In this document: positions 45,523-63,502 of the stretch, one piece after another
How the letters are laid out: each line of letters opens with the position of its first letter
How positions within the stretch are numbered: position 1 is the first letter of the stretch
DNA from: Clostridia bacterium
Lineage (GTDB): Bacteria > Bacillota_A > Clostridia > Oscillospirales > CAG-272
Reading direction: 5' to 3'
Length of the DNA: 64,000 nt
Assembly: GCA_017466455.1 (NCBI GenBank)
Contig: JAFTUD010000016.1
Span: forward strand, 1 to 64,000
Program-made: the position numbers and the translations under genes
Notes under the pieces: generated by a model
What the model was told of the DNA's origin: nothing
The model's database searches: none
Seen by the model: the letters and a program-made list of their open reading frames with translations, nothing else

Positions 45523-47139
45523 ATGTTAAACCTTGATAAATTTCATTTCAGCGCAAGAAACTCCTTGATTTCCATTTCAAGATCTGATGAAAAATTGATT
45601 TTGAATTCACTTCATAACGGCGGAATGGTACCGCTTATGGAGCTTGACTATTCGGGCTCAATTACCGAAGCATTTCTGCCATGGGAGCTTCAAATAAGCG
45701 CAAATGATAAAGCGCATAAAATGTGCCTGTTTGATAAGGACGGAATTTGCTTTTCGGGAAAGGGAAACTCCCCCTGCCTCAATTATATCTATATGAAGGG
45801 CGTGTATAACGCAAACTATATCTATGAAGGAAATAACCTTCTAAAGCTTTGCGATTGCTTTACAAATACATTCCATACCTTCAAAATTCATAAGGGCAAA
45901 ATATCCCTTGATACAAAGGATAGCGACAGAAGAATATATAAGGATTACATAAAAATAACAGTTTTACCCGACGAAAACGGAGAATATGAGTTCACCCTTC
46001 GCCTTAGCACAAGCGAAAGCTCCGTTTATACCGACTTAACATACGGTGAATATTTGGAAGGCAGAAAAAATGAATATCTTGCGTGGGAAGAAAAAATGAA
46101 GTGCCAAAACGAGGTCGATAAGGCGTGCGCATATGTTTTGTGGAGCAATATCATCTCGGGCGAGGGCAACTACGACAGAGATGCAATCGTAATGAGTAAA
46201 TCGGGCATGTGTAAGCTCTGGTCGTGGGATAATACCTTTAATGCCCTTGACTTGGCTGATAAGGATTTTGACCTTTCGTATAATCAGCTCATTTACCCGT
46301 ATAGATTTATGGATAATCACGGCAGGACCCCCGATACCGTTACTACCACAAATATGGAATGGTCGTTCGTAAAGCCCCCAATCCAAGGCTGGATTTATAA
46401 GCAGCTCGTAAAGCGTAACAAAAAATACGAGGATATTGAAATCTTAGATGAGCTTTACTACTATATGAAAAGGAACACGGACTGGTGGCTCAACTACCGC
46501 GGAAATACCCCCTGCTATTACCACGGAAACGACTCGGGCAACGATAATGCAACATGCTTTGATAATACCGAAATTATTCAGTCCCCCGATCTGATTGCAT
46601 ATTTGTCAGTTCAATGTGAGGTATTGTCGCAAATGGCACAAAGGCTTAATTTGTGTAACGATGCAAGAATATATAAAATGCTATCAAGCGAGCTTTTGGA
46701 GAAGTGTGTAACACATTTTTGGGACGGAGAAATTTTCATTCGTAACGGTATGACCGAGGAAATATACAGACCTCAAAGCCTGATGCCACTTAGAATGATT
46801 GTTTTAGAGGATAGGCTACCTAAGGATATAAAGGAATATATACTAAGCAAGCTTGAAAAGGACTTCCTATGCCCATACGGCCTTGCAAGCGAATCCGTTC
46901 ATAGCCCGTTCTATACCCAAAACGGCTACTGGAGAGGACCCGCATGGGGACCCGACCAAATTATATTCGCCTTATCACTTAGAAATATAGGAGAAACCGA
47001 GCTGAGCGAGCGTATCGTGGCAGGCTATAAAAAGGCAATAGAAAAATCAGGCTTCTCCGAAAACCACGACCCACTAACAGGCGACTCATTGAAATGCAAA
47101 GCATACTGCTGGACCGCAAACGCTTATAGACTGTTATAA
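45523..47139 (+). CDS. GH63/MGH1-like glycosidase
   Basis: 538 residues, no signal peptide. An N-terminal beta-domain (about 1-185) precedes an (alpha/alpha)6 barrel. Barrel landmarks are MSKSGMCKLWSWDNTFNALDLA, GNDSGNDNATCFDN (the position of the general-acid Asp) and NGYWRGPAWGPDQIIFALSLRN, as in GH63, mannosylglycerate hydrolase-like and trehalase-like enzymes. These invert alpha-glucosidic or alpha-mannosidic bonds. Cytoplasmic action on an imported oligosaccharide is likely. The terminator at 47174-47209 follows. Confidence 0.82.
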   Translation: MLNLDKFHFSARNSLISISRSDEKLILNSLHNGGMVPLMELDYSGSITEAFLPWELQISANDKAHKMCLFDKDGICFSGKGNSPCLNYIYMKGVYNANYIYEGNNLLKLCDCFTNTFHTFKIHKGKISLDTKDSDRRIYKDYIKITVLPDENGEYEFTLRLSTSESSVYTDLTYGEYLEGRKNEYLAWEEKMKCQNEVDKACAYVLWSNIISGEGNYDRDAIVMSKSGMCKLWSWDNTFNALDLADKDFDLSYNQLIYPYRFMDNHGRTPDTVTTTNMEWSFVKPPIQGWIYKQLVKRNKKYEDIEILDELYYYMKRNTDWWLNYRGNTPCYYHGNDSGNDNATCFDNTEIIQSPDLIAYLSVQCEVLSQMAQRLNLCNDARIYKMLSSELLEKCVTHFWDGEIFIRNGMTEEIYRPQSLMPLRMIVLEDRLPKDIKEYILSKLEKDFLCPYGLASESVHSPFYTQNGYWRGPAWGPDQIIFALSLRNIGETELSERIVAGYKKAIEKSGFSENHDPLTGDSLKCKAYCWTANAYRLL

Positions 47140-47173
47140 TGAGCAAAAATAATTAAGTCATCATCGCAATGAA

Positions 47174-47209
47174 TAAAAAACGGCAAGCTCGCGAGGCTTG
47201 CCGTTTTTG
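47174..47209 (+). terminator. Rho-independent terminator
   Basis: AAAAACGGCAAGC-CGCGAG-GCTTGCCGTTTTT (loop approximate), a strong stem. The gap 47210-47538 has no gene I can support. It starts with a sequence resembling a decayed tRNA/integrase end (47211-47316) and then AT-rich DNA. Confidence 0.9.
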
Positions 47210-47210
47210 C

Positions 47211-47316
47211 TTGGAGTGACCCAATCCCGTAAGAACACCGTTAAAAAGTGCGATAAACCCTTAAGGCAACAGACTTCTTGGACTTTTCATAAAGTGGATT
47301 TTTGCGAAAATGCAAA
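47211..47316. repeat. Decayed module, copy 1 (tRNA-end-like start, then TTTTTGCGAAAATG)
   Basis: TTGGAGTGACCCAATCCCG, TTAAAAAGTGCGATAAA-CCCTTAAGGCA and GACTTTTCATAAAG...TTTTTGCGAAAATG. Related pieces occur at 56228-56286 (TTAAAAAGCGTCATAAA-GCCTTGTGGCA) and at 53073-53112 (GACTTTTGAAAAAGG...GCAAAAATG). It follows a terminator in two of the three places. Confidence 0.5.
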
Positions 47317-47538
47317 TATAAAAGTAAAATGCTTAAAGTGATACGCTTGCTGTCGCTTGAAAATGTCGTGTTTTCAAGACATATGTATTTTGACAAGTAT
47401 CATTTTGGAGGGTATAATTTTATTGTAAAAGTTGCTTCTGCAATAATATTAAAAATAGTGATACGAAATTGTTTTGAAATAATTTAGCAACAATTTGTTA
47501 ATATTTTTCAGATATAGTAAAGAAAAAGGAGGGCAAAT

Positions 47539-48219
47539 ATGACCACGAAAAACAGAATTTTTTCAAATAAATTTTCTCTTGTTGAGTATGAAGGTAAATA
47601 TGGCTTAAATAATGGAAAAAATGTAGTTTTATACCCCGTTTATGACTCAATATGTGAGCTTGATGACTTTGATTTTATAATCGAGCAGGACGGCAAATTC
47701 GGATATGCTGATTATAACGAGCAAGGCGAAAGAGAGTTGCTTTTGCCACTCTATGATGTTATAATAAAAAAGGAGCATGGGCTTTCTCTAATGAAGCGAA
47801 CCGAACAAGGAAAAGAGTATTTTTGGTATGACACCAAAAATCACACCTTGCACCCTAACATGATGCACATTCGTTCATTTAGAGAGTACGATTTATTTGT
47901 TTCCACAAAAAAATGTGACTACAAAAAGTCCCCATTCCTTAAAAAATGGGGAGAGAATATTTATATTGAAATACCATTTGATGCTAATGTAGATATTCTT
48001 TACGAGATACCCTGTGGAGCTCTTTCGTTTTTTGTCGCTATTGAGGAACTTGATAATGAACAGTATGAATATTGTTTCTTAATAGTAAAAAATGACGGAT
48101 GCTATACATTTACAGCATCTAAAAACAATCTTGAAGAATTATATAAGACAATACCCACTTTAATGGAGGACATAAAATGCAACTTGAAAATACTATGGCA
48201 TTTGCCAAAACAGAAATAA
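47539..48219 (+). CDS. WG-repeat-like protein, first gene of the seven-gene operon
   Basis: 226 residues, soluble. The N-terminal third has two or three degenerate WG repeats (EGKYGLNNGKNVVLYPVYDSI, then DGKFGYADYNEQGERELLLPLYDVI): K-x-G followed by a turn, a hydrophobic strand and P-x-Y/F-D. The rest is beta-rich with a basic patch (KKSPFLKKWGENIYIEIPF) and no family I know. WG proteins form beta-propeller-like scaffolds. Ribosome site AAAGGAGG. The last 43 bases overlap the start of the ATPase gene in another frame, so the two are translationally linked. Confidence 0.7.
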   Translation: MTTKNRIFSNKFSLVEYEGKYGLNNGKNVVLYPVYDSICELDDFDFIIEQDGKFGYADYNEQGERELLLPLYDVIIKKEHGLSLMKRTEQGKEYFWYDTKNHTLHPNMMHIRSFREYDLFVSTKKCDYKKSPFLKKWGENIYIEIPFDANVDILYEIPCGALSFFVAIEELDNEQYEYCFLIVKNDGCYTFTASKNNLEELYKTIPTLMEDIKCNLKILWHLPKQK

Positions 48220-49529
48220 TTTGTCACGGGGCAAGAGCAACAAGAATCGGCGAAAGGCTTTTGCACAAAGTAAGGAAATACCTACAAAGCACCGATTTTG
48301 TCAAGGGTAATATAAGCGAAAACGAAAGAAAAGAAATGTTTCATTCAATTTCCTTAAAAGGCATTATTTCGTATCCTGATGATATTGCAAATTTAGACAC
48401 AGAGTGTGACATTATTTATCAAATCATTACAGATGATGACAGTCATCTTCAAGAAAATCTAAAATTAGTCACAGAAAATTCAAATGGAATACCGTGCATA
48501 GTTTTTGTAATTGGAGAAAAAAAGGATGAAATAGTAAACAACGCATATATAAATGTGGAAGAAAATGAGCTTTTAGATACATTTCTTGACTTGTTTTCCG
48601 TTTACACATTCCCACAGGAATATGGTGCAGACTTTGAGGAGCTAAGACCACTTTTTGAGCACAAAGGACAGATTTATGTGGTAGCATTAAAATATCTTTG
48701 CCAATCAGTGCTTGAAAACTATATAAGATATGCTTTTGTGATGAACGGTGATGAATGTAATCTGACTGATTTTGAGAGGATAAAAGGCGAAAGCACGGTG
48801 GTTTTATCTTCTCGTAAATCCCTAAAAGATGAAGAAATGAAAAAGCGAGGCTATATAATTTTCAAGGAAGAACCTTATTTTGACCATAATTTTGAGGGCA
48901 TCGTAAATGATATAGCTGAGAACAATGGACTTTTTAGTATTTTTTCACATGCTGGCTTCGGAAAAACAACACTTGCCTTACAACTTCTCAAAGGAGCTTT
49001 GGAGAAAAAGGGAGGTAAGGCGCTAATTTTATCCCGAGAAATGTCTGGAAAAACTATGATAGAGAGAGCAACTTGCTTTTTAGATAAGGACAAAATAATT
49101 GTTGATGATGATGTAATAAAATCACCATTCAATATAATAAGTGAAAATCTAAAAGCAAATAGTGATATCTCCGTTGTTTTTGTTGATAGCGTATATTTAA
49201 GAGACGATAATATGTGTGATTATAAAAAAGCAAGTGTTCAATATTCCGTGCCTGTGATTACAACATCTTGTTTGCCAAGAAATTCCGGAGATAATATGCC
49301 AAGAAATTTGCCAAAACTTTCGGATTTAAATTGCACATCACTTGCTCAAGAAAGTGACTATATTATATTTTTGCACCGAGACCATAGAGCAATAAGAGGT
49401 GTTGGAACAAGGGAAAACAAAGATGTAAGTAAAAATGCACAGCTTATAGTAGCAAAAAATCGCTATGGTGAAAGAGATATAGTAGCAAAAGCATATTGGA
49501 ACAAGGAAAAGAGGCGGTTTGAATTTTGA
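48177..49529 (+). CDS. DnaB-type RecA ATPase fused to an unknown, possibly FtsZ-like, domain
   Basis: 450 residues. The C-terminal half (about 250-450) is a DnaB/RadA-type RecA core: Walker A SHAGFGKTT (Lys263), ILSREMSGKTMIERA in place of DnaB's S-L-E-M segment, Walker B VVFVDSVYL, VPVITTSCLPRN, the L-x-D-L segment LPKLSDLNCTSLAQESDYIIFLHRD and the closing IVAKNRYGERD. The N-terminal 240 residues are not the DnaB helical domain. Their order of strands, with ECDIIYQIITDDDSHLQENL, GIPCIVFVIG and GADFEELRPLFEHKGQIYVVAL, follows that of FtsZ/tubulin (compare A-D-V-x-x-V-M-x-x-x-G-x-A-L-M-G) but the G-G-G-T-G-T-G signature is absent. That fold assignment is my inference. Ribosome site GGAGG. Confidence 0.8.
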   Translation: MQLENTMAFAKTEIICHGARATRIGERLLHKVRKYLQSTDFVKGNISENERKEMFHSISLKGIISYPDDIANLDTECDIIYQIITDDDSHLQENLKLVTENSNGIPCIVFVIGEKKDEIVNNAYINVEENELLDTFLDLFSVYTFPQEYGADFEELRPLFEHKGQIYVVALKYLCQSVLENYIRYAFVMNGDECNLTDFERIKGESTVVLSSRKSLKDEEMKKRGYIIFKEEPYFDHNFEGIVNDIAENNGLFSIFSHAGFGKTTLALQLLKGALEKKGGKALILSREMSGKTMIERATCFLDKDKIIVDDDVIKSPFNIISENLKANSDISVVFVDSVYLRDDNMCDYKKASVQYSVPVITTSCLPRNSGDNMPRNLPKLSDLNCTSLAQESDYIIFLHRDHRAIRGVGTRENKDVSKNAQLIVAKNRYGERDIVAKAYWNKEKRRFEF

Positions 49530-49558
49530 AAACAGAAAATAAAAATGGGGGGACAAAT

Positions 49559-50320
49559 ATGCAATTAAGCAAAATTGAGAAACAGCGTGTTTTGGAGATA
49601 AACAAGGAGGCTCTTAAGCTTTTTGTGAATTCGCTTAATGATGAGAATCTTGGAATAAGGGCGAGAGATTTTCTTTTGAAGGAACAAAAGCTTTCTTTGC
49701 CGATAGTTGAGCGCTTTCAAATTGGCTACGCCCCTGAAAATTTCAATGCTCTTTATGATAGACTAATAAATCTTAATTATACAAAGGAAGAAATTATACT
49801 CAGCTGTTTGTTTGAAAAAGATTGCATAGATGGCAAAATATGCGGTTGTTTAAGTGATAGAGTTATTCTTCCTGTTATTGATGTTTGTGGTAATGTGGTT
49901 GCCTTTGTTGGATGTGCTATTGGCAAAGCTATGCCTAAATATATTGTTACAGCGGATAAGCATAAAGACAGTCTTTTCGGGCTAAATCTTGCTAAAGAGC
50001 ATTGCACGAACGAACTAATTTTATGTGAGGGCTTCTTTGATGTCATAGCATTGCACAAGATAGGCTTTGAAAATACTGTTTCTACTTTGGGTACAGCCCT
50101 TACAAGTGAGCAGGCAAGGATCATAGCAAAATGTACTAATAATGTGGCAATTTGCTTTGATAGCGATTCATGTGGACAAGCATTGGCGGAACAAGCACAC
50201 AAGTCTTTAAAGGAAACAGGGATTAATGTGAGAATAGTGAAACTTACTGATGCCAAAGACCCAAGTGAATTTATTGAAAAGTACGGGAAAAATTCGTTTT
50301 CGACATTGTTACAACAATAA
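49559..50320 (+). CDS. DnaG-like primase without zinc finger
   Basis: 253 residues from the ATG at 49559 (ribosome site GGGGGG; the earlier ATG at 49526 overlaps the ATPase stop and lacks a site). The N-terminal part matches the DnaG RNAP-basic domain: ARDFLLKEQKLSLPIVERFQIGYAP, SDRVILPVIDVCGNVVAFVG and FGLNLA. The Toprim core follows: Glu157 in LCEGFFD with Asp161, STLGTALTSEQA, and the metal Asp pair D201-x-D203 in CFDSDSCG, ending with KDPSEFIEKYG. The CHC2 zinc-binding domain that starts normal DnaG is missing, as is the helicase-binding tail. It lies 29 bases after the DnaB-type ATPase gene, so primase and helicase-type ATPase probably work together. Confidence 0.88.
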   Translation: MQLSKIEKQRVLEINKEALKLFVNSLNDENLGIRARDFLLKEQKLSLPIVERFQIGYAPENFNALYDRLINLNYTKEEIILSCLFEKDCIDGKICGCLSDRVILPVIDVCGNVVAFVGCAIGKAMPKYIVTADKHKDSLFGLNLAKEHCTNELILCEGFFDVIALHKIGFENTVSTLGTALTSEQARIIAKCTNNVAICFDSDSCGQALAEQAHKSLKETGINVRIVKLTDAKDPSEFIEKYGKNSFSTLLQQ

Positions 50321-50343
50321 AATTGTTAAGAAGGAGATCTGTT

Positions 50344-50901
50344 ATGGAACAGAAGAATATTGATGAATTACTTGAAAAAATGGAAGAAGAGGTTGACGAA
50401 GCAAGAGAAAATTCTCTATATGATAAAGAAGCAATTTTAGAAGAATACGCTGAAATGGGAATAGCCGAGGCAATTTATCAGCTTGCTGAGCTTGAATGGT
50501 ATGAATTAGATGCTCGTCGTGGAGCAGCGCTATATGAGCAAGCGGCTGAAATGGGACATCCAAAGGCTCTTTGGAAAATGGGAATAGTAAATGAAACCCC
50601 CTTGTTGTCGGATGGCTATGAGGATGAATATATGGCAAGATATTATTATGAGGAAGCCATCAAGGCGGGTTGCACGGAGGCTTGTTATGAGCTTGGAAAT
50701 ATGTATAATAATGGAATTGAAGTAGAACAGGACAAGAGGAAGGCTTTTCAGCTCTTTAAGAAAGCGGCTGCATGTAATGAACCAAGAGCACTTGAAATGC
50801 TCTCAGTATATTATGCAAACGGAATAGTCGTAGAAAAGGATATGGAAACCGCATATAAGCTGGCACATAAAGCTTACATAGAATTGAACAATAGAGGATA
50901 A
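50344..50901 (+). CDS. Sel1-repeat protein
   Basis: 185 residues from the ATG at 50344 behind AAGGAGAT. An acidic helical head (about 1-35) leads to four or five Sel1-like repeats, for example ALYEQAAEMGHPKALWKMG, ARYYYEEAIKAGCTEACYELGNMYNNGIEV, AFQLFKKAAACNEPRALEMLSVYYANGIVV. Such alpha-solenoids bind peptides or act as adaptors. No signal peptide, so cytoplasmic. It probably scaffolds the primase and ATPase encoded just before it; that role is inference from the operon. Confidence 0.88.
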   Translation: MEQKNIDELLEKMEEEVDEARENSLYDKEAILEEYAEMGIAEAIYQLAELEWYELDARRGAALYEQAAEMGHPKALWKMGIVNETPLLSDGYEDEYMARYYYEEAIKAGCTEACYELGNMYNNGIEVEQDKRKAFQLFKKAAACNEPRALEMLSVYYANGIVVEKDMETAYKLAHKAYIELNNRG

Positions 50902-50910
50902 TAAATTTTT

Positions 50911-51666
50911 ATGGAAAAAATATTTCGGCAATATAAGGATGAAATAACTGATGATTTTTGCAACACCGAGTATGATAAGGGTTTAGAGCTTAATCCTATC
51001 TATCAAACGCATCCCGAAATGTTACCGTATATAGGTAAGCAATACAATAAACATAGAATTTTGTGTGTAGGGGAGAGCCATTATTTATCAAAGCAAACAA
51101 AAAATTTTTCATATGACTTGAAAAAATGGTACACCGAAAATTTAACAGAGCAAAAGTATGATGAGAATAATCCCTTGCACAAGAGCTTTAGCTCGTTTTT
51201 TACAAGATATGTTTTGTTTAAACATATAGTTGGTAAGGAAAGAGGGGCGGGTTACAGTATGTTTTATAGACCTGCAAAAGCTTGCTGTGATGTTATTGGT
51301 TGTGACGAGGACAAGGTGTGGGAGCATTTTGCTTTCATGAACTATTACCAGCGCCCTGCCGAAATCAGAGGAGAATCTATTGACAAGCAAAAAGAGGACA
51401 GCCTTTTATCAAAAGTAAACTTAGACTATGTTTGTAAAATAATAGAACCAACCATTATAGTATTTCTTTCTAAAAAGGCATATAACGATTGGATGAAAAC
51501 AGAGCTATGCTCTGATACAGTTGAAACATATGAAGATTGTTCTTATCCGGTATCTCATCCAACATCGCATTGGTGGGAAAGAAAACGCAAGGATGGCGGA
51601 TGTGCCAAAGAAGATTTTAGAAATATTATAAAAGCAATAGTAGACTTGGCGAAAAGATTTCAATGA
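50911..51666 (+). CDS. Conserved hypothetical protein with GESHY motif, possibly uracil-DNA-glycosylase-like
   Basis: 251 residues, soluble. The segment HRILCVGESHYLSKQ (about residues 47-61) resembles the first active-site strand of the uracil-DNA glycosylase superfamily (V-G-x-A-P/E), and the late VSHPTSHWWERKRKDGG resembles its H-P-S loop. WEHFAFMNYYQRPA sits where the family has its N-x-x-x-x motif. I recall similar proteins annotated only as hypothetical. The fold call is tentative. Ribosome site GAGGA; nine bases after the Sel1 gene. Confidence 0.6.
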   Translation: MEKIFRQYKDEITDDFCNTEYDKGLELNPIYQTHPEMLPYIGKQYNKHRILCVGESHYLSKQTKNFSYDLKKWYTENLTEQKYDENNPLHKSFSSFFTRYVLFKHIVGKERGAGYSMFYRPAKACCDVIGCDEDKVWEHFAFMNYYQRPAEIRGESIDKQKEDSLLSKVNLDYVCKIIEPTIIVFLSKKAYNDWMKTELCSDTVETYEDCSYPVSHPTSHWWERKRKDGGCAKEDFRNIIKAIVDLAKRFQ

Positions 51667-51670
51667 ATGG

Positions 51671-52774
51671 ATGGACAAATTAATGAACGATAGGTTTGCA
51701 TTTTTTAACGAATTAGAAAACAAAGAGCCTCGATTTGATGATGCTTACGAGTGCTTCAGTGATGAAAAAGTCGATTTTTATATAGTAAAAAGCAAGGATG
51801 AGTATTATGCAATATATGCAAATGGAAAGCAAAAGAAATTACCGCCTATTTGCCATGGCATTTGCTTTGAAAATGGACTGGGACAAATTAGTGTTGATGG
51901 GAAATACGGATTTGTTGATTTAGATGGTAATATAGTGATAGAGCCTAAGTATGTAAATGTGCATTTTCCATATGAAGGCTTGATAGCTGTAACCGAAACT
52001 TGGGAAAAAGGTGTAGGCTTCCTTGATATGCAGGGCAACGAGGTGATACCTCCTAAATTTCGCACTTCAATTTCCTTTAATGAGGGATTGGCTGGAGTTA
52101 TGGTGAAAACCGAAAAAGGCTATAAGTGGGGTTTTATAGATAAAAAGGGAGAAATAGTTATAAAACCAAAATACTCTTATGTATCTATCTTTCATAACGG
52201 ATTTGCAGAGGTGCGAATAGGTAACAGAGCTGCATACATAAACAAGCAAGGTAAGGAAACAAACTATCTATCGAAAAGATGGCCAAGCTTCAAAAATGAA
52301 AGAATGAGCTTTTGCAAGGATAGGCATCACGGATTTATTAATGAAAATAATGAAATAGTAATCCCTGCACAGTATACAATGGTAAAGGATTTTTACGAAG
52401 GACTTGCTGGAGTAAAAAGAAAAGGCGAAAAATGGGGCTTTATAGATGTAAATGGAAACACAGTAATAGAGCCTAAATTTGATGATGTTACTTATTTTAG
52501 CGAGGGACTTTGTGCCGTTAGAATAGGTAAGCGCTGGGGATACATAGATAAAACCGGAAATGTAGTAATAAATCCTCGCTTTGAAGAAGCAGGAGGCTTT
52601 TCTAACGGTTGTGCAGAGGCAGGAGAAAACTCCAAGGTAGGAATAATAGACAAAAATGGAAATTATTTAATCGAGCCTATGTTTAACATCATTAGACCAT
52701 TTGATTACGAAGGATGCAGAATTGTAAAAATGGGCGAAAAATACGATATAATTAAGGTGTCAAAAAATGGCTAA
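51671..52774 (+). CDS. WG-repeat protein
   Basis: 367 residues. At least eight WG repeats: DGKYGFVDLDGNIVIEPKY, KGVGFLDMQGNEVIPPKF, KWGFIDKKGEIVIKPKY, HHGFINENNEIVIPAQY, KWGFIDVNGNTVIEPKF, RWGYIDKTGNVVINPRF and KVGIIDKNGNYLIEPMF. Each is followed by F-x-E-G-L-A-G-V or similar. No signal peptide, so this is a cytoplasmic scaffold. The ribosome site is weak (TGGATGG), fitting translation by re-initiation four bases after the stop of the gene before it. It overlaps the next small gene by eight bases. Confidence 0.9.
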   Translation: MDKLMNDRFAFFNELENKEPRFDDAYECFSDEKVDFYIVKSKDEYYAIYANGKQKKLPPICHGICFENGLGQISVDGKYGFVDLDGNIVIEPKYVNVHFPYEGLIAVTETWEKGVGFLDMQGNEVIPPKFRTSISFNEGLAGVMVKTEKGYKWGFIDKKGEIVIKPKYSYVSIFHNGFAEVRIGNRAAYINKQGKETNYLSKRWPSFKNERMSFCKDRHHGFINENNEIVIPAQYTMVKDFYEGLAGVKRKGEKWGFIDVNGNTVIEPKFDDVTYFSEGLCAVRIGKRWGYIDKTGNVVINPRFEEAGGFSNGCAEAGENSKVGIIDKNGNYLIEPMFNIIRPFDYEGCRIVKMGEKYDIIKVSKNG

Positions 52775-52970
52775 ACAAGAATTTATATATGATGGCTGTG
52801 GCAGAAGAGTTGGCTGGATAGAAACAGACGAAAGAGGCAACAAGCGTGCTTGCAGTATGACAAAGGGTGTTGTTGGCTACTATTATAAAGACACAAATCG
52901 CACAGTTGAAGCCTCAACAGGGAAAATTATTTCATTCTGCGATTCCGTGATTTCGTTACTCTTCAAATAA
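52767..52970 (+). CDS. Small protein closing the seven-gene operon (67 aa)
   Basis: 67 residues, starting eight bases inside the WG-repeat gene. It begins KQEFIYDGCGRRVGWIE, then DERGNKRACSMTKGVVGYYYKDTNRTVEAS and a hydrophobic C-terminus (IISFCDSVISLLFK). Gly/Tyr/Arg-rich beta-hairpins dominate, with three Cys. I do not recognise it. It could be a small partner of the WG protein; a real gene is likely given the overlap and the terminator right behind (52974-53002). Confidence 0.65.
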   Translation: MAKQEFIYDGCGRRVGWIETDERGNKRACSMTKGVVGYYYKDTNRTVEASTGKIISFCDSVISLLFK

Positions 52971-52973
52971 CAA

Positions 52974-53002
52974 AAAGGACTACTTGGAAAAGTAGTCCTT
53001 TA
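52974..53002 (+). terminator. Terminator of the seven-gene operon
   Basis: AAAGGACTACTT-GGAA-AAGTAGTCCTTT, perfect 12-base stem. The gap 53003-53248 has no gene; it contains a decayed module related to 47211-47316 and then a short palindrome (AGAGTGCA ... TGCACTCT, 53167-53199). Confidence 0.88.
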
Positions 53003-53248
53003 ATATTCATTTGGCGTCCTAATCCCCATGGTTTGAATTAGAAACGCGTGGTCGAGATTGTATCCCGAAAAATTTTTGAGACTTTTGAAAAAGGTCTGGT
53101 TTTGAGCAAAAATGTAATTTCAATAGTGAAAAATGCTCGAAAATGTACAATTTCTGTAAAGGCTAAGAGTGCAAAAAACGAAAATCAAGCTGCACTCTTA
53201 ACAAAATAGTACCCTCTTTTTTGTGTTTTTTCTTTTGAACTAATTATA

Positions 53249-57796: not shown

Positions 57797-57847
57797 ATCT
57801 TAATATAAACAAAAATGACTAAGTCAGTATCATAGACAAATAAAAGG

Positions 57848-58138
57848 TCGGCTGACAGGATGACTTCGCGATAAATTGCTCGTAACACTTCGCAGCCTCT
57901 GATGTGCAAGCACCTCTCGGCTTTGCTCGCTAGGCGCACCTGATTTGCGACAAGTCGCAAAGGCAGGCTCTACCGCCATACACGAAAATAAAAACGGCAT
58001 ACCCAAAAGGGTACAGGTCGGCTGACAGGATGACTCCACTACGTTCCGTTGAATTGCCCACGGCTTAGATTAGCAAGCTATCACGCCTTAGGGCAATTTT
58101 GCGCACCTGATTCAACTTGCGTTGAAAGCATATTCAAA
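57848..58138. repeat. Structured intergenic repeats, right copies (module B then module A)
   Basis: Module A head (GGTCGGCTGACAGGATGACT) at 57847-57866, then module B (TTGCG-ACAAG-TCGCAAAGGCAGGCTCTACCGCC ... AAAAGGGTACA, to 58015), then a second module A (58015-58112) whose arms read CAAC-TTGC-GTTG. The copy breaks off inside the terminator hairpin of module B where the second module A begins. Stem arms at the same place differ in sequence but keep pairing. Within 57797-58321 I see no gene. Confidence 0.75.
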
Positions 58139-58321: not shown

Positions 58322-58693
58322 ATGGAAAAGTACATCACTCAAAACGGCATCAAATACGAGCTTAAAGGCGAGCAATACTATCCAATGCTCGAAATCGCAG
58401 AGCAAAAGGAACACAAAATCGGCAAATACGGACTCCTTCACCTTGACTTTATAAAGAAGCACCGCAGAGGCACATATACCACTCTTTTAACCGAAGGTAG
58501 GCTCAACGCACACCTTCACGAAATCGACGTACAAGCCAATGAAATGGTCGAAGCTATGGTTGACAACCTTGCCCGCGAACGCGGCATAGACGAAGAATTA
58601 AAGGCTTCTGATGCCATCAAATGGGTTGCCGAAATGAATAACATCAAGTCAAGCGCGGAAGAAATCGTTTTGCGGGAGGTGATCTATCAATGA
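58322..58693 (+). CDS. TnpV-like transposon-encoded protein
   Basis: 123 residues. It matches the TnpV family (PF14198) of Tn4451-type and related clostridial mobile elements: head YITQNGIKYELKGEQYYP, middle YGLLHLDFIKKHRRGTY, TLLTEGRLNAHLHEID, tail with ARERGIDEELK and a segment ending AEEIVLREVIYQ. The role of TnpV is not established; it travels with large serine recombinases, none of which is visible here. Ribosome site AAAGGAAT after a small hairpin. It overlaps the next gene by ATGA. Confidence 0.9.
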   Translation: MEKYITQNGIKYELKGEQYYPMLEIAEQKEHKIGKYGLLHLDFIKKHRRGTYTTLLTEGRLNAHLHEIDVQANEMVEAMVDNLARERGIDEELKASDAIKWVAEMNNIKSSAEEIVLREVIYQ

Positions 58694-60415: not shown

Positions 60416-63400
60416 ATGGCACATAAAGATTTATATATAGTGGACAACTCTACAGAAGATACTACTGTGAAAAAATATTTGACCGATTGGTGTTCTGTGT
60501 CAAAGCAAATGGACATTGCTACGGGTTATTTGGAGATTGGTGGCTTGTTAGCTTTGGATACTCATTGGCAGAAATTAGATAAGATTAGAATTATTCTTGG
60601 CAACGAAATGACCAAAAGAACGAAGGATGTAATTGATGAGGTTGCATCTTCGATGCTTCGCACTTTTAGGCAAAGTGTAGATCAAGAACATGAACACAAT
60701 GAGTTTCTTATAGGAGTTCCTGCTATTCTTGATGCGTTGAAAAACGGAAAAATCGAGTGTCGTGTTTTTGATAAAAACAAATTCCATGCAAAAGCGTATA
60801 TAACTTATTTTAGAGATGAGTATAGGAACCAGTTTATTCAATCAATGAACATACCCGCAGGGTACGCATTGGTTGGATCAAGCAATTTCACAAAAGCAGG
60901 GTTGACACAAAACATTGAATTAAATGTCCAAGTGAAATCTGATGTCGAGCAGCTTCAAGAGTGGTTTGATGAACGTTGGGAGCAAGGGCTTGACATAAGC
61001 GAAGCTGTTCTCCAAGTTATTGAAAATCATTGTCAAGAGTTTTCTCCGTATGATGTTTACTTGCGAGCTATGTATGAGTATTTTAGAACACGAGAAGAAA
61101 CGATATCTGAGTGGGAACATAAGGACTCGGTCATATATCAAGGATTAGCTCAATATCAGCGTGATGGCTATAACAGTATGGTAGAAATAGCAAATCGTTA
61201 TAGTGGTGCTTTTTTGTGCGATGGCGTTGGTTTGGGTAAAACCTTTGTGGGACTTATGCTAATTGAACGTTTCGTAAAAAAAGAGCGCAAAAATGTTGTG
61301 CTTATCGTTCCCGCATCTGCGCGTGTTTCCGTGTGGGAAACCACCATAAAAAAATACATTCCCGAGATACTTGAAGGCTTTTATCCATTTAAAATCATCA
61401 ACCATACGGATTTGCTTTTGGAAAAAAATCAAAATTTGATGAATCAAATTTCGGAACAAGCAGAAATCGTTATTATTGATGAAGCTCACCACTTTAGAAA
61501 CAGAGCATCCAATCGTTATCGTAAGTTGTTTGATATGATGGGCAATGGACCTCGCAAGCAAATGTTTATGTTGACCGCTACACCCATTAACAACAGTTTT
61601 TTGGATTTGCAGCATTTAATCGAATTGTTTACTCAACGTCAAGAAGATTATTTTGCAGCAGCACCTTTGGGCATTCATAGCTTAACAGGTCATTTCAAAA
61701 AGATGGAGGCAAAGCTTACTTCTTCGGGAACTTCAGCAGATAATGCCACAGACATTACTGACGATATTTTTAGAAAAGACCCGTTAGTCAACCAATTGGT
61801 TGTACAAAGAAGCAGAGCATATGTGAAAAAGAGCTTGTCTACAGCGGAAGGTTCTAACGTAATGTTTTCAGTTAGACAGCCTCCCTTTGTTGCAAACTAT
61901 TCAATGAGAAATTCTTACGGTAAGTTGATTGATGATTTTGTAGGCTCATTTTATCGTAAGGATAAGAATGGACGTACATTGCCAATTTTGGCTTTGGCAG
62001 TATATTCTCCCTACGAAGAAGCTTATTTCATCGGGGATAGATCTAAACTTGATGAAATGGTCACAGGTAGACAAGCGCAAATCGTAAATTTGATTCGACA
62101 GCTCTTGCTGAAACGCTTTGAAAGTTCTGTAGCTGCATTCGAGGAAACCTGCATTAGAATTTACGTTCGCCTTAAGAAATTCATAACAGACTATCGCGAC
62201 TATGGAAATGCGAGAGCCATTGACAGATTGCTCAACAAACAGACTGATGTTATTTCTTACGTAGAAAAATATATTACTCAAATCGTGCAGACCACCTTGG
62301 ATGAGTATGAAGATGATTTGCCGTCGTATGTTTGGGATAGTGAAGAAAGCCTCAATATTGATGAATTTGATATAAGAACAATGTTGGAAGATACTATTCT
62401 TGATATGGAGGTTTTGGCAGAATTTATATCGGATATTATGGATATTGATCCTGATAACGATGATAAAATTCGTGAGTTGAAACGTATTTTGAGCGAAGAT
62501 TTGCACATCAAAGGTAAAAAGGTGATTATTTTTACTGAATACAAAGTCACCGCCGAATACATTTATCGAGAATTAATAAAATCCGGTTTTTCTAATATTT
62601 TTGAAATTGATGGTCAAACAAAAGGAAATCGTCACGAATTAATACAACGCTTTGCTCCGTATTACAACGATTCTTCCTCCGATCAAATTAGCGATGAAAT
62701 TAATATTCTTATTGCAACGGATGTCTTGGCGGAAGGCTTGAATTTGCAAGATGCATCTTGTTTGATTAACTATGAGCTTCATTGGAACCCGGTTAGACTT
62801 ATGCAACGTATTGGTCGTGTTGACCGTAGACGGAATGCAGCAATTGAAGAAAGACTTTTGCGAGATCATCCCGAATTAGCAGAAGACCGAGAGAACGCTT
62901 ATTATTGGAACTTTTTACCTCCTGCAGAGTTGGAAAAGCTGCTTTCTTTGTATGAAACTGTTTCGCGCAAAACCTTAAGAATATCTAAAACATTTGGAAT
63001 TGAGGGCAAAAAACTATTAACTCCTGATGATGATTACGAAGCGTTGAAAGATTTCAATTCCCAATATGAAGGCGAAACATCCGGAGAAGAAGAAATCGCA
63101 CTTGCTTATCAAGAATTAATGAATCAAAATCCCGATTATGAAAAAGAAGTTTCTGCACTTCCTAAAAAGATTTATAGTGGTAAATCATCGGGTTATGTGG
63201 GTTGTTTCTTCTGTTACGAATTACCAACCAAACTTGCTAACGGTGAATGGTCAAACGGAAACGGTTTATATCGTTGGTATCTTTTAGATTCCAAATCTGG
63301 TACGATAAGTGAGCAAATATATGATATATGGACCATCATTAAATGCGATGCGAGTGAAAAACGAGTTTTGAAAATAAGCGAAGATGAGTTCAAAACGAGC

Positions 63401-63502
63401 AGAAAAACGGTCGAAGATTACATAAAGAAATCATATATGAGAGCTATTCAAGCTCCGATAGGAATTAAACCACGCCTTGTAACGTGGATGGAGCTTGTAT
63501 AA
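60416..63502 (+). CDS. PLD-nuclease/SNF2-family helicase fusion
   Basis: 1028 residues. The N-terminal domain (about 1-200) has a phospholipase-D nuclease motif: H124-x-K126 in KFHAKAYI and the following GSSNFTKAG (Gly154 on). The helicase core starts near 235: Walker A DGVGLGKT (269-276), DEAH (355-358), TATPINN (motif III), then after a long helical insertion the second RecA lobe with ATDVLAEGLNLQDA and IGRVDRRRN (motif VI). A C-terminal domain (about 860-1028) with RWYLLDSKSG completes it. It is the likely DNA-cutting, translocating part of a restriction system, with the methyltransferase encoded 37 bases downstream. Ribosome site AAGGAG. Confidence 0.9.
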   Translation: MAHKDLYIVDNSTEDTTVKKYLTDWCSVSKQMDIATGYLEIGGLLALDTHWQKLDKIRIILGNEMTKRTKDVIDEVASSMLRTFRQSVDQEHEHNEFLIGVPAILDALKNGKIECRVFDKNKFHAKAYITYFRDEYRNQFIQSMNIPAGYALVGSSNFTKAGLTQNIELNVQVKSDVEQLQEWFDERWEQGLDISEAVLQVIENHCQEFSPYDVYLRAMYEYFRTREETISEWEHKDSVIYQGLAQYQRDGYNSMVEIANRYSGAFLCDGVGLGKTFVGLMLIERFVKKERKNVVLIVPASARVSVWETTIKKYIPEILEGFYPFKIINHTDLLLEKNQNLMNQISEQAEIVIIDEAHHFRNRASNRYRKLFDMMGNGPRKQMFMLTATPINNSFLDLQHLIELFTQRQEDYFAAAPLGIHSLTGHFKKMEAKLTSSGTSADNATDITDDIFRKDPLVNQLVVQRSRAYVKKSLSTAEGSNVMFSVRQPPFVANYSMRNSYGKLIDDFVGSFYRKDKNGRTLPILALAVYSPYEEAYFIGDRSKLDEMVTGRQAQIVNLIRQLLLKRFESSVAAFEETCIRIYVRLKKFITDYRDYGNARAIDRLLNKQTDVISYVEKYITQIVQTTLDEYEDDLPSYVWDSEESLNIDEFDIRTMLEDTILDMEVLAEFISDIMDIDPDNDDKIRELKRILSEDLHIKGKKVIIFTEYKVTAEYIYRELIKSGFSNIFEIDGQTKGNRHELIQRFAPYYNDSSSDQISDEINILIATDVLAEGLNLQDASCLINYELHWNPVRLMQRIGRVDRRRNAAIEERLLRDHPELAEDRENAYYWNFLPPAELEKLLSLYETVSRKTLRISKTFGIEGKKLLTPDDDYEALKDFNSQYEGETSGEEEIALAYQELMNQNPDYEKEVSALPKKIYSGKSSGYVGCFFCYELPTKLANGEWSNGNGLYRWYLLDSKSGTISEQIYDIWTIIKCDASEKRVLKISEDEFKTSRKTVEDYIKKSYMRAIQAPIGIKPRLVTWMELV

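Follow-up and report, generated by a model that had tools for sequence, protein, structure and literature searches.

A seven-gene operon on contig JAFTUD010000016.1 of a Clostridia bacterium (assembly GCA_017466455.1) was analyzed within a stretch of 64,000 nucleotides (nt), hereafter called the window. We give roughly even odds that this operon now occupies an exchangeable island slot, being modular in makeup and most likely an anti-phage or anti-mobile-element effector unit; the evidence for a modular slot is stronger than that for an anti-phage role. The operon itself is real. Its seven open reading frames (ORF1 to ORF7) lie in the same direction on the plus strand at positions 47539 to 52970 (Table 1), all seven frames are open, and the largest intergenic gap is 29 nt, given the ATG start of ORF3. 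That start fits because the database version of the protein (P0029) has 253 amino acids (aa). The gene calls, gene order, and tight spacing proposed in an earlier sequence-only reading of this DNA were confirmed, as were its domain calls (DnaB_C in ORF2, DNAG_N and Toprim in ORF3, Sel1 in ORF4, and WG in ORF6).

Judged by sequence, the operon is a mosaic, with a conserved head, a tail gene present in two relatives, and a differing middle. Using an ORF2 alignment, we found four related loci among genome contigs (L001 to L004), all from Clostridia metagenome-assembled genomes of roe deer, water deer, and goat guts and all belonging to the genus that we sampled with 29 genomes. Homology with the window spans ORF1 or its upstream region into ORF2 (only ORF2 in L004) and is kept upstream of ORF1 in L001 and L002; ORF1 is 64 to 77% identical to its counterparts in L001 to L003. 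In these four of the five known head loci, the homology ends at 48667/48668, inside ORF2. In 90-nt blocks, identity to L001 was 0.93 and 0.96 before the block containing this breakpoint and 0.28 and 0.51 after it. A third tail is seen in L004, whose match to L001 likewise ends near the breakpoint. The ORF2-head gene ends about 51 to 55 residues past the breakpoint in L001 to L003; the window gene continues into a DnaB-type domain. What follows the head also differs: a 180-aa protein in L001; a Sel1 protein, a 190-aa protein, and a WG protein in L002; a uracil-DNA glycosylase (UDG)-like 253-aa protein in L003 (Pfam UDG E value of 0.006, below the cutoff); and no cargo gene in L004. The helicase half, primase, and glycosylase of the window are absent from all four.

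Toward the other end of the operon, the segment from ORF6 through the terminator (51695 to 53001) is shared with L002 at 87.7% nt identity, and the ORF4 Sel1 gene is 76% identical in nt to its L002 counterpart. ORF7 recurs in L001 at 87.9% nt identity, followed by a different hairpin, and a second, leftover ORF7 end lies upstream in L001 (9002 to 9048). Synonymous divergence (dS) between the window and L001 was 0.30 in the ORF2 head versus 0.58 in ORF1, and that between the window and L002 was 0.86 in the ORF2 head versus 0.42 in ORF6. Ratios of nonsynonymous to synonymous divergence (dN/dS), computed from genes shared with L001, L002, or L003, were 0.07 to 0.29 for ORF1, ORF2 codons 1 to 164, ORF4, ORF6, and ORF7 (0.07 to 0.08 for ORF7), indicating purifying selection; the ATPase half of ORF2, ORF3, and ORF5 fall outside this comparison.

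The full seven-gene set was found in none of the genomes searched. Recurrence of the set as a block, which the sequence-only reading had named as its expected support, was therefore not seen; the 29 genomes of the nearest genus show parts only, namely, ORF1, the ORF2 head, and ORF7, with Sel1 and WG genes additionally in L002. ORF1 matched at E < 1e-100 in 3 of the 29, and a fourth, weak match contains a stop. ORF7 occurs in five, including distant matches, and is near-identical in two. The ORF2 head is present in five, one of which (G014) has only a fragment. Among 395 family genomes the same five loci were recovered, plus one weak hit that was not counted (G193; E value of 0.0096, three stops), and among 394 order genomes only G001 had the head; the sampled sets overlap to some degree. 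Searches with the full ORF2 alignment also matched housekeeping DnaB, and such matches were excluded from the head counts; the family and order scans used an alignment without the DnaB part.

A variable slot is suggested by the flanks. The glycosidase encoded upstream of the operon has close relatives (81 to 90% protein identity) in 11 of the 29 genus genomes, and in all eight relatives compared, homology with the window ends right after this gene, at 47139 to 47149. In G026, it resumes for 86 nt at window positions 52969 to 53054, so that the glycosidase on the left and the border segment on the right are common to both and the content is different: the G026 slot encodes a PD-(D/E)XK nuclease, a 92-aa protein, a WYL protein, and a P-loop-like protein that falls below the Pfam cutoff and whose motif lacks the usual lysine. 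In G027, the border segment adjoins an intact tRNA-Pro, and a P-loop-like/WYL pair that appears by eye to be similar to that of G026 lies next to it. Directly after a related glycosidase, G007 (L096, 501 to 6027) carries a type IIG restriction-methylation enzyme, a specificity piece, and an OLD-type ATPase. The L002 copy is enclosed by perfect 42-bp direct repeats, and of this sequence L001 carries 30 nt in a single copy, at the equivalent site, where the element is absent. Variable content at a tRNA-Pro 3'-end remnant and direct repeats around the L002 copy resemble tRNA-associated genomic islands; unlike in such islands, there is no integrase among the seven proteins, and the repeats are scattered across genomes of the genus.

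Several results weigh against an exchangeable defense slot. The G014 fragment (L057) loses homology with the window earlier, at 48424. The drop in identity is gentler against L002, L003, and L004 (from 0.69 to 0.76 down to 0.36 to 0.44) and, because L001 also returns to 0.51, changed constraint could mimic recombination. Moreover, L001, L002, and L003 can be aligned with one another past the breakpoint (44 to 51% identity over 51 to 55 residues), so the four comparisons amount to one tail change and not to independent events. Independent cases are few, given five head-bearing genus genomes of which one has a fragment. Defense-type genes follow the glycosidase in only two of the eight relatives compared; by eye, the genes in the other six look metabolic or unassigned. 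The border segment is dispersed, with parts in 13 of 29 genus genomes, as is the core of the L002 repeat (nine places in 8 of 29), and neither the window copy nor L003 showed a border repeat. PADLOC (PADLOC-DB 2023) gave no system in the operon and partial hits only, which lie over the DnaG-like part of ORF3 (RT_UG29, 6.9e-20; RTasDnaG-like, 3.5e-15); a domain search found no reverse transcriptase family in the operon proteins. Finally, the structure model of ORF2 is poor (mean pLDDT of 66).

The C-terminal half of ORF2 is a DnaB-type RecA ATPase that lacks the LR-x-SG loop of DnaB. DnaB_C matched at residues 352 to 449 (E value of 1.6e-16 for the protein), results of the structure search were dominated by the RecA half, and the Walker A motif, catalytic Glu, Walker B motif, and K/R finger pair are all present. 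The corresponding residues (GKT at 262 to 264, E288, D337, K427, and R429) are kept in ORF2 and in both P0002 and P0003. In DnaB, the DLR[ED]SG loop contacts DNA. Its L, R, S, and G were invariant in 22 of 22 DnaBs compared (32 DnaB loci filtered on GARPxxGKT), and the loop is lost in ORF2, P0002, and P0003, where R is replaced by N, N, and V and G by T, T, and S, respectively. The H3 Gln, present in all 22, is also lost in these three proteins. Compared with DnaB (PF03796), the ORF2 domain is 20 to 27% identical to the 22 family members, and the DnaB N-terminal family was not found in ORF2 by domain search. Loss of the LR-x-SG loop counts against ORF2 as a replicative helicase. Beyond the cluster of ORF2 itself, the protein search gave two full-length relatives (64 and 58% identical), a protein consisting of the head only, and a fragment that may be chimeric. 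P0005, encoded on a 1,008-base contig, has a membrane-protein-like start joined to the motif region of the ORF2 head, as either a chimera or a real fusion; its first half presumably resembles YlbJ. It was included in the ORF2 alignment for the genome-contig and viral-contig scans and omitted afterwards.

ORF3 retains the core of a primase. Like DnaG (TIGR01391), it has DNAG_N and a Toprim core with the conserved Glu and DxD residues (E168, D212, D214, and D245), covering model positions 104 to 358 of 414 with a score of 197 against a cutoff of 283.6. Unlike DnaG, it lacks the CHC2 zinc finger and the C-terminal helicase-binding part and is altered at positions fixed in four of four comparators (e.g., S for D at 247). 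Besides its own entry, it has one close relative (87%), and the rest are at 31 to 48%.

ORF5, called a GESHY protein in the sequence-only reading, has a UDG fold. Family 4 and UdgX glycosylases carry GExPG at the position of GESHY. No solved chain was found by sequence at E values up to 10. Its relatives comprise 4 close proteins (72 to 77%) and 18 at 32 to 39%; none was found in the 29 genus genomes (a search made without a positive control) or in phage records, and none was confirmed in viral contigs. A distant relative (28%) is encoded on the Pseudomonas plasmid NZ_CP049142.1 (L058, 7956 to 8636), in a stretch that also has TerD, AIM24, HNH, and helicase genes. Two members of the UDG superfamily, Brig1 and Brig3, are anti-phage proteins (PMC11078745 and PMC13160076). 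The Brig3-BapA operon has partners other than those of the ORF5 operon.

An exchangeable defense-type operon fits these observations best because of the different slot content in G026, the restriction and OLD genes in G007, the differing cargo behind the head, and the existence of anti-phage UDG enzymes. From sequence and genomic context, we infer an anti-phage or anti-mobile-element function. Phage defense had been one of several roles offered in the sequence-only reading; it gains indirect support from the G026 slot content and the G007 genes after the glycosidase. In such a unit, ORF1 and the ORF2 head may recognize a trigger or recruit effectors. The DnaB-type domain would then not translocate as a helicase but serve as an ATP-driven switch or clamp. 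Short nucleic acid might be made or cut by the DnaG-type Toprim core, the UDG-fold protein could remove or sense an unusual base, and the Sel1 and WG repeats may hold the parts together. The conserved ends and the dispersed border repeats would be the sites at which recombination exchanges cassettes. More tentatively, the operon may represent a polymorphic system of the immunity type that is confined to one Clostridia genus and has not been described before, in which a lineage-specific recognition head is joined at a fixed intragenic point to changing nucleic acid effectors; here, a non-helicase ATPase derived from DnaB, a Toprim core derived from DnaG, and a glycosylase with a new specificity would jointly act on invading DNA. 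No described system combining these parts was found in the open-access literature searched, and within that literature the same statement in the sequence-only reading holds. If true, an exchangeable operon would have put DnaB and DnaG pieces to uses other than replication, and recombination of the polymorphic-toxin type would extend to DNA enzymes that act inside the cell. Because of the breakpoint, the idea can be tested, as the head can be separated from the cargo and the cargoes can be compared.

Four other explanations were weighed. It is unlikely that the operon is a DNA repair or replication restart unit, with an ATPase, a primase core, and a base excision glycosylase that the host retains to deal with damaged DNA. 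The retained primase residues of ORF3, the fold of ORF5, and purifying selection on the shared genes would suit such a unit; the loss from all three ORF2 family members of the loop and Gln seen in every DnaB compared, the missing parts and changed fixed positions of ORF3, and the lack of these enzymes in the four head-keeping loci argue against it. Slightly less probable is a module that replicates or maintains a mobile island, akin to the SCCmec primase-helicase pair. A primase-helicase operon has reportedly been described for SCCmec (PMC7581432), and the tRNA-Pro remnant, the border repeats, and the variable slot are compatible with an island, as are matches of ORF3 to a phage DNA primase family (phrog_6444, E value of 4e-52) and of ORF2 to phage DnaB-like families (E value of 2e-13). 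Against this, none of the seven proteins matched an integrase, capsid, terminase, relaxase, or partition family in a domain search, in agreement with the sequence-only reading. Searches of 72,556 plasmid and 50,697 phage records yielded no match to ORF2, and an alignment scan confirmed no relative in viral contigs; the lost ATPase loop also speaks against such a module. The domesticated replicon also suggested earlier is weakened because the ATPase loop is lost, primase domains are missing, and ORF2 is absent from the phage and plasmid records.

Improbable, too, is a polymorphic-toxin-like locus with a constant N-terminal part, an exchangeable C-terminal effector, and repeat proteins as immunity or accessory factors. 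Such toxins diversify by recombining C-terminal cassettes (PMC3482391), and the ORF2-head gene likewise has an N-terminal part that is conserved and C-terminal parts that vary among relatives; however, no Pfam secretion or toxin domain exceeded the cutoff in the operon or the head, and several whole genes differ instead of one C-terminal domain. That the operon is island content in decay or evolving neutrally, without a function under selection, is very improbable, since the fragment in G014 and the leftover tail in L001 stand against seven open frames, dN/dS values of 0.07 to 0.29 for the shared genes, and the retention of ATPase motifs in ORF2, P0002, and P0003.

TABLE 1 Features of the operon and its flanks in the window
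Feature	Positions	Strand	Description
Variable slot	47149-53058		End of glycosidase homology to tRNA-Pro 3'-end remnant
Hairpin	47176-47208		37 nt downstream of upstream glycosidase stop
Promoter TTGACA-17-TATAAT	47390-47418	+	12/12 match, upstream of ORF1
ORF1	47539-48219	+	226 aa, lineage specific, part of conserved head
ORF2	48177-49529	+	Head, diverged middle region, DnaB-type ATPase
ORF2 head domain, codons 1-164	48177-48668	+	Conserved, ends in YTFPQEYGADFEELRPLFEHKG
ORF2 region past breakpoint	48669-48872	+	Diverged, retains ILxSR-type motif
DnaB-type RecA ATPase domain, ORF2 residues 235-450	48879-49526	+	LR-x-SG loop lost
ORF3	49559-50320	+	DnaG-type core; ATG start, TTG frame opens at 49526
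ORF4	50344-50901	+	Sel1 repeats; ATG start, TTG at 50323
ORF5	50911-51666	+	UDG fold with GESHY motif
ORF6	51671-52774	+	Seven WG repeats
ORF7	52767-52970	+	67 aa, conserved tail gene
Terminator-like hairpin	52974-53001		Reported on both strands
tRNA-Pro 3'-end remnant	53049-53058	-	10 nt identical; intact tRNA-Pro there in G027

The promoter in Table 1 is the single site with a 12/12 match among 26 promoter-like sites found (23.7 expected); terminator-like sites numbered 6 (3.6 expected). Hairpins do occur on both sides of the operon, as had been claimed, but the left one is more likely the terminator of the glycosidase, whose stop it follows so closely. Domain searches gave no family above the cutoff for ORF1, ORF5, or ORF7. 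The description of ORF1 as WG-like was not confirmed: window ORF1 has no Pfam hit, and its relatives have weak WG hits below the cutoff (L001, E value of 0.009; L003, E value of 0.15). Seven WG stretches are visible in ORF6. The ORF2 head had no known family in Pfam and PDB sequence searches. A possible FtsZ/tubulin origin, raised by its DFEELRP motif, was rejected: when profiles were compared with those of nine FtsZ proteins, the probability was 0.14% (the alignments being too shallow to judge a distant relation), and neither the Pfam nor the PDB sequence search backed it. The extra tubulin matches in G014 come from a separate cluster on its contig 62 (L072, 6836 to 16957), which encodes four consecutive tubulin-like proteins, three of 935 to 1133 aa and one truncated by the contig end.

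Relatives of ORF7 also occur at unrelated sites in genus genomes (L053, L054, and L055, with 66, 67, and 108 aa, respectively, and a profile match in G015 [L044]). Downstream of the operon, window positions 57846 to 57945 match a repeat that is dispersed in the genus; the same sequence directly follows, in G026 (L095), the border segment corresponding to 52969 to 53054. A gene for a PLD-like and SNF2/helicase protein lies 7.4 kb downstream of the operon (60416 to 63502), with a transposon-type TnpV gene (58322 to 58693) in between; its best PADLOC hit was C3a139 "HKD+Snf2" (E value of 3e-60).

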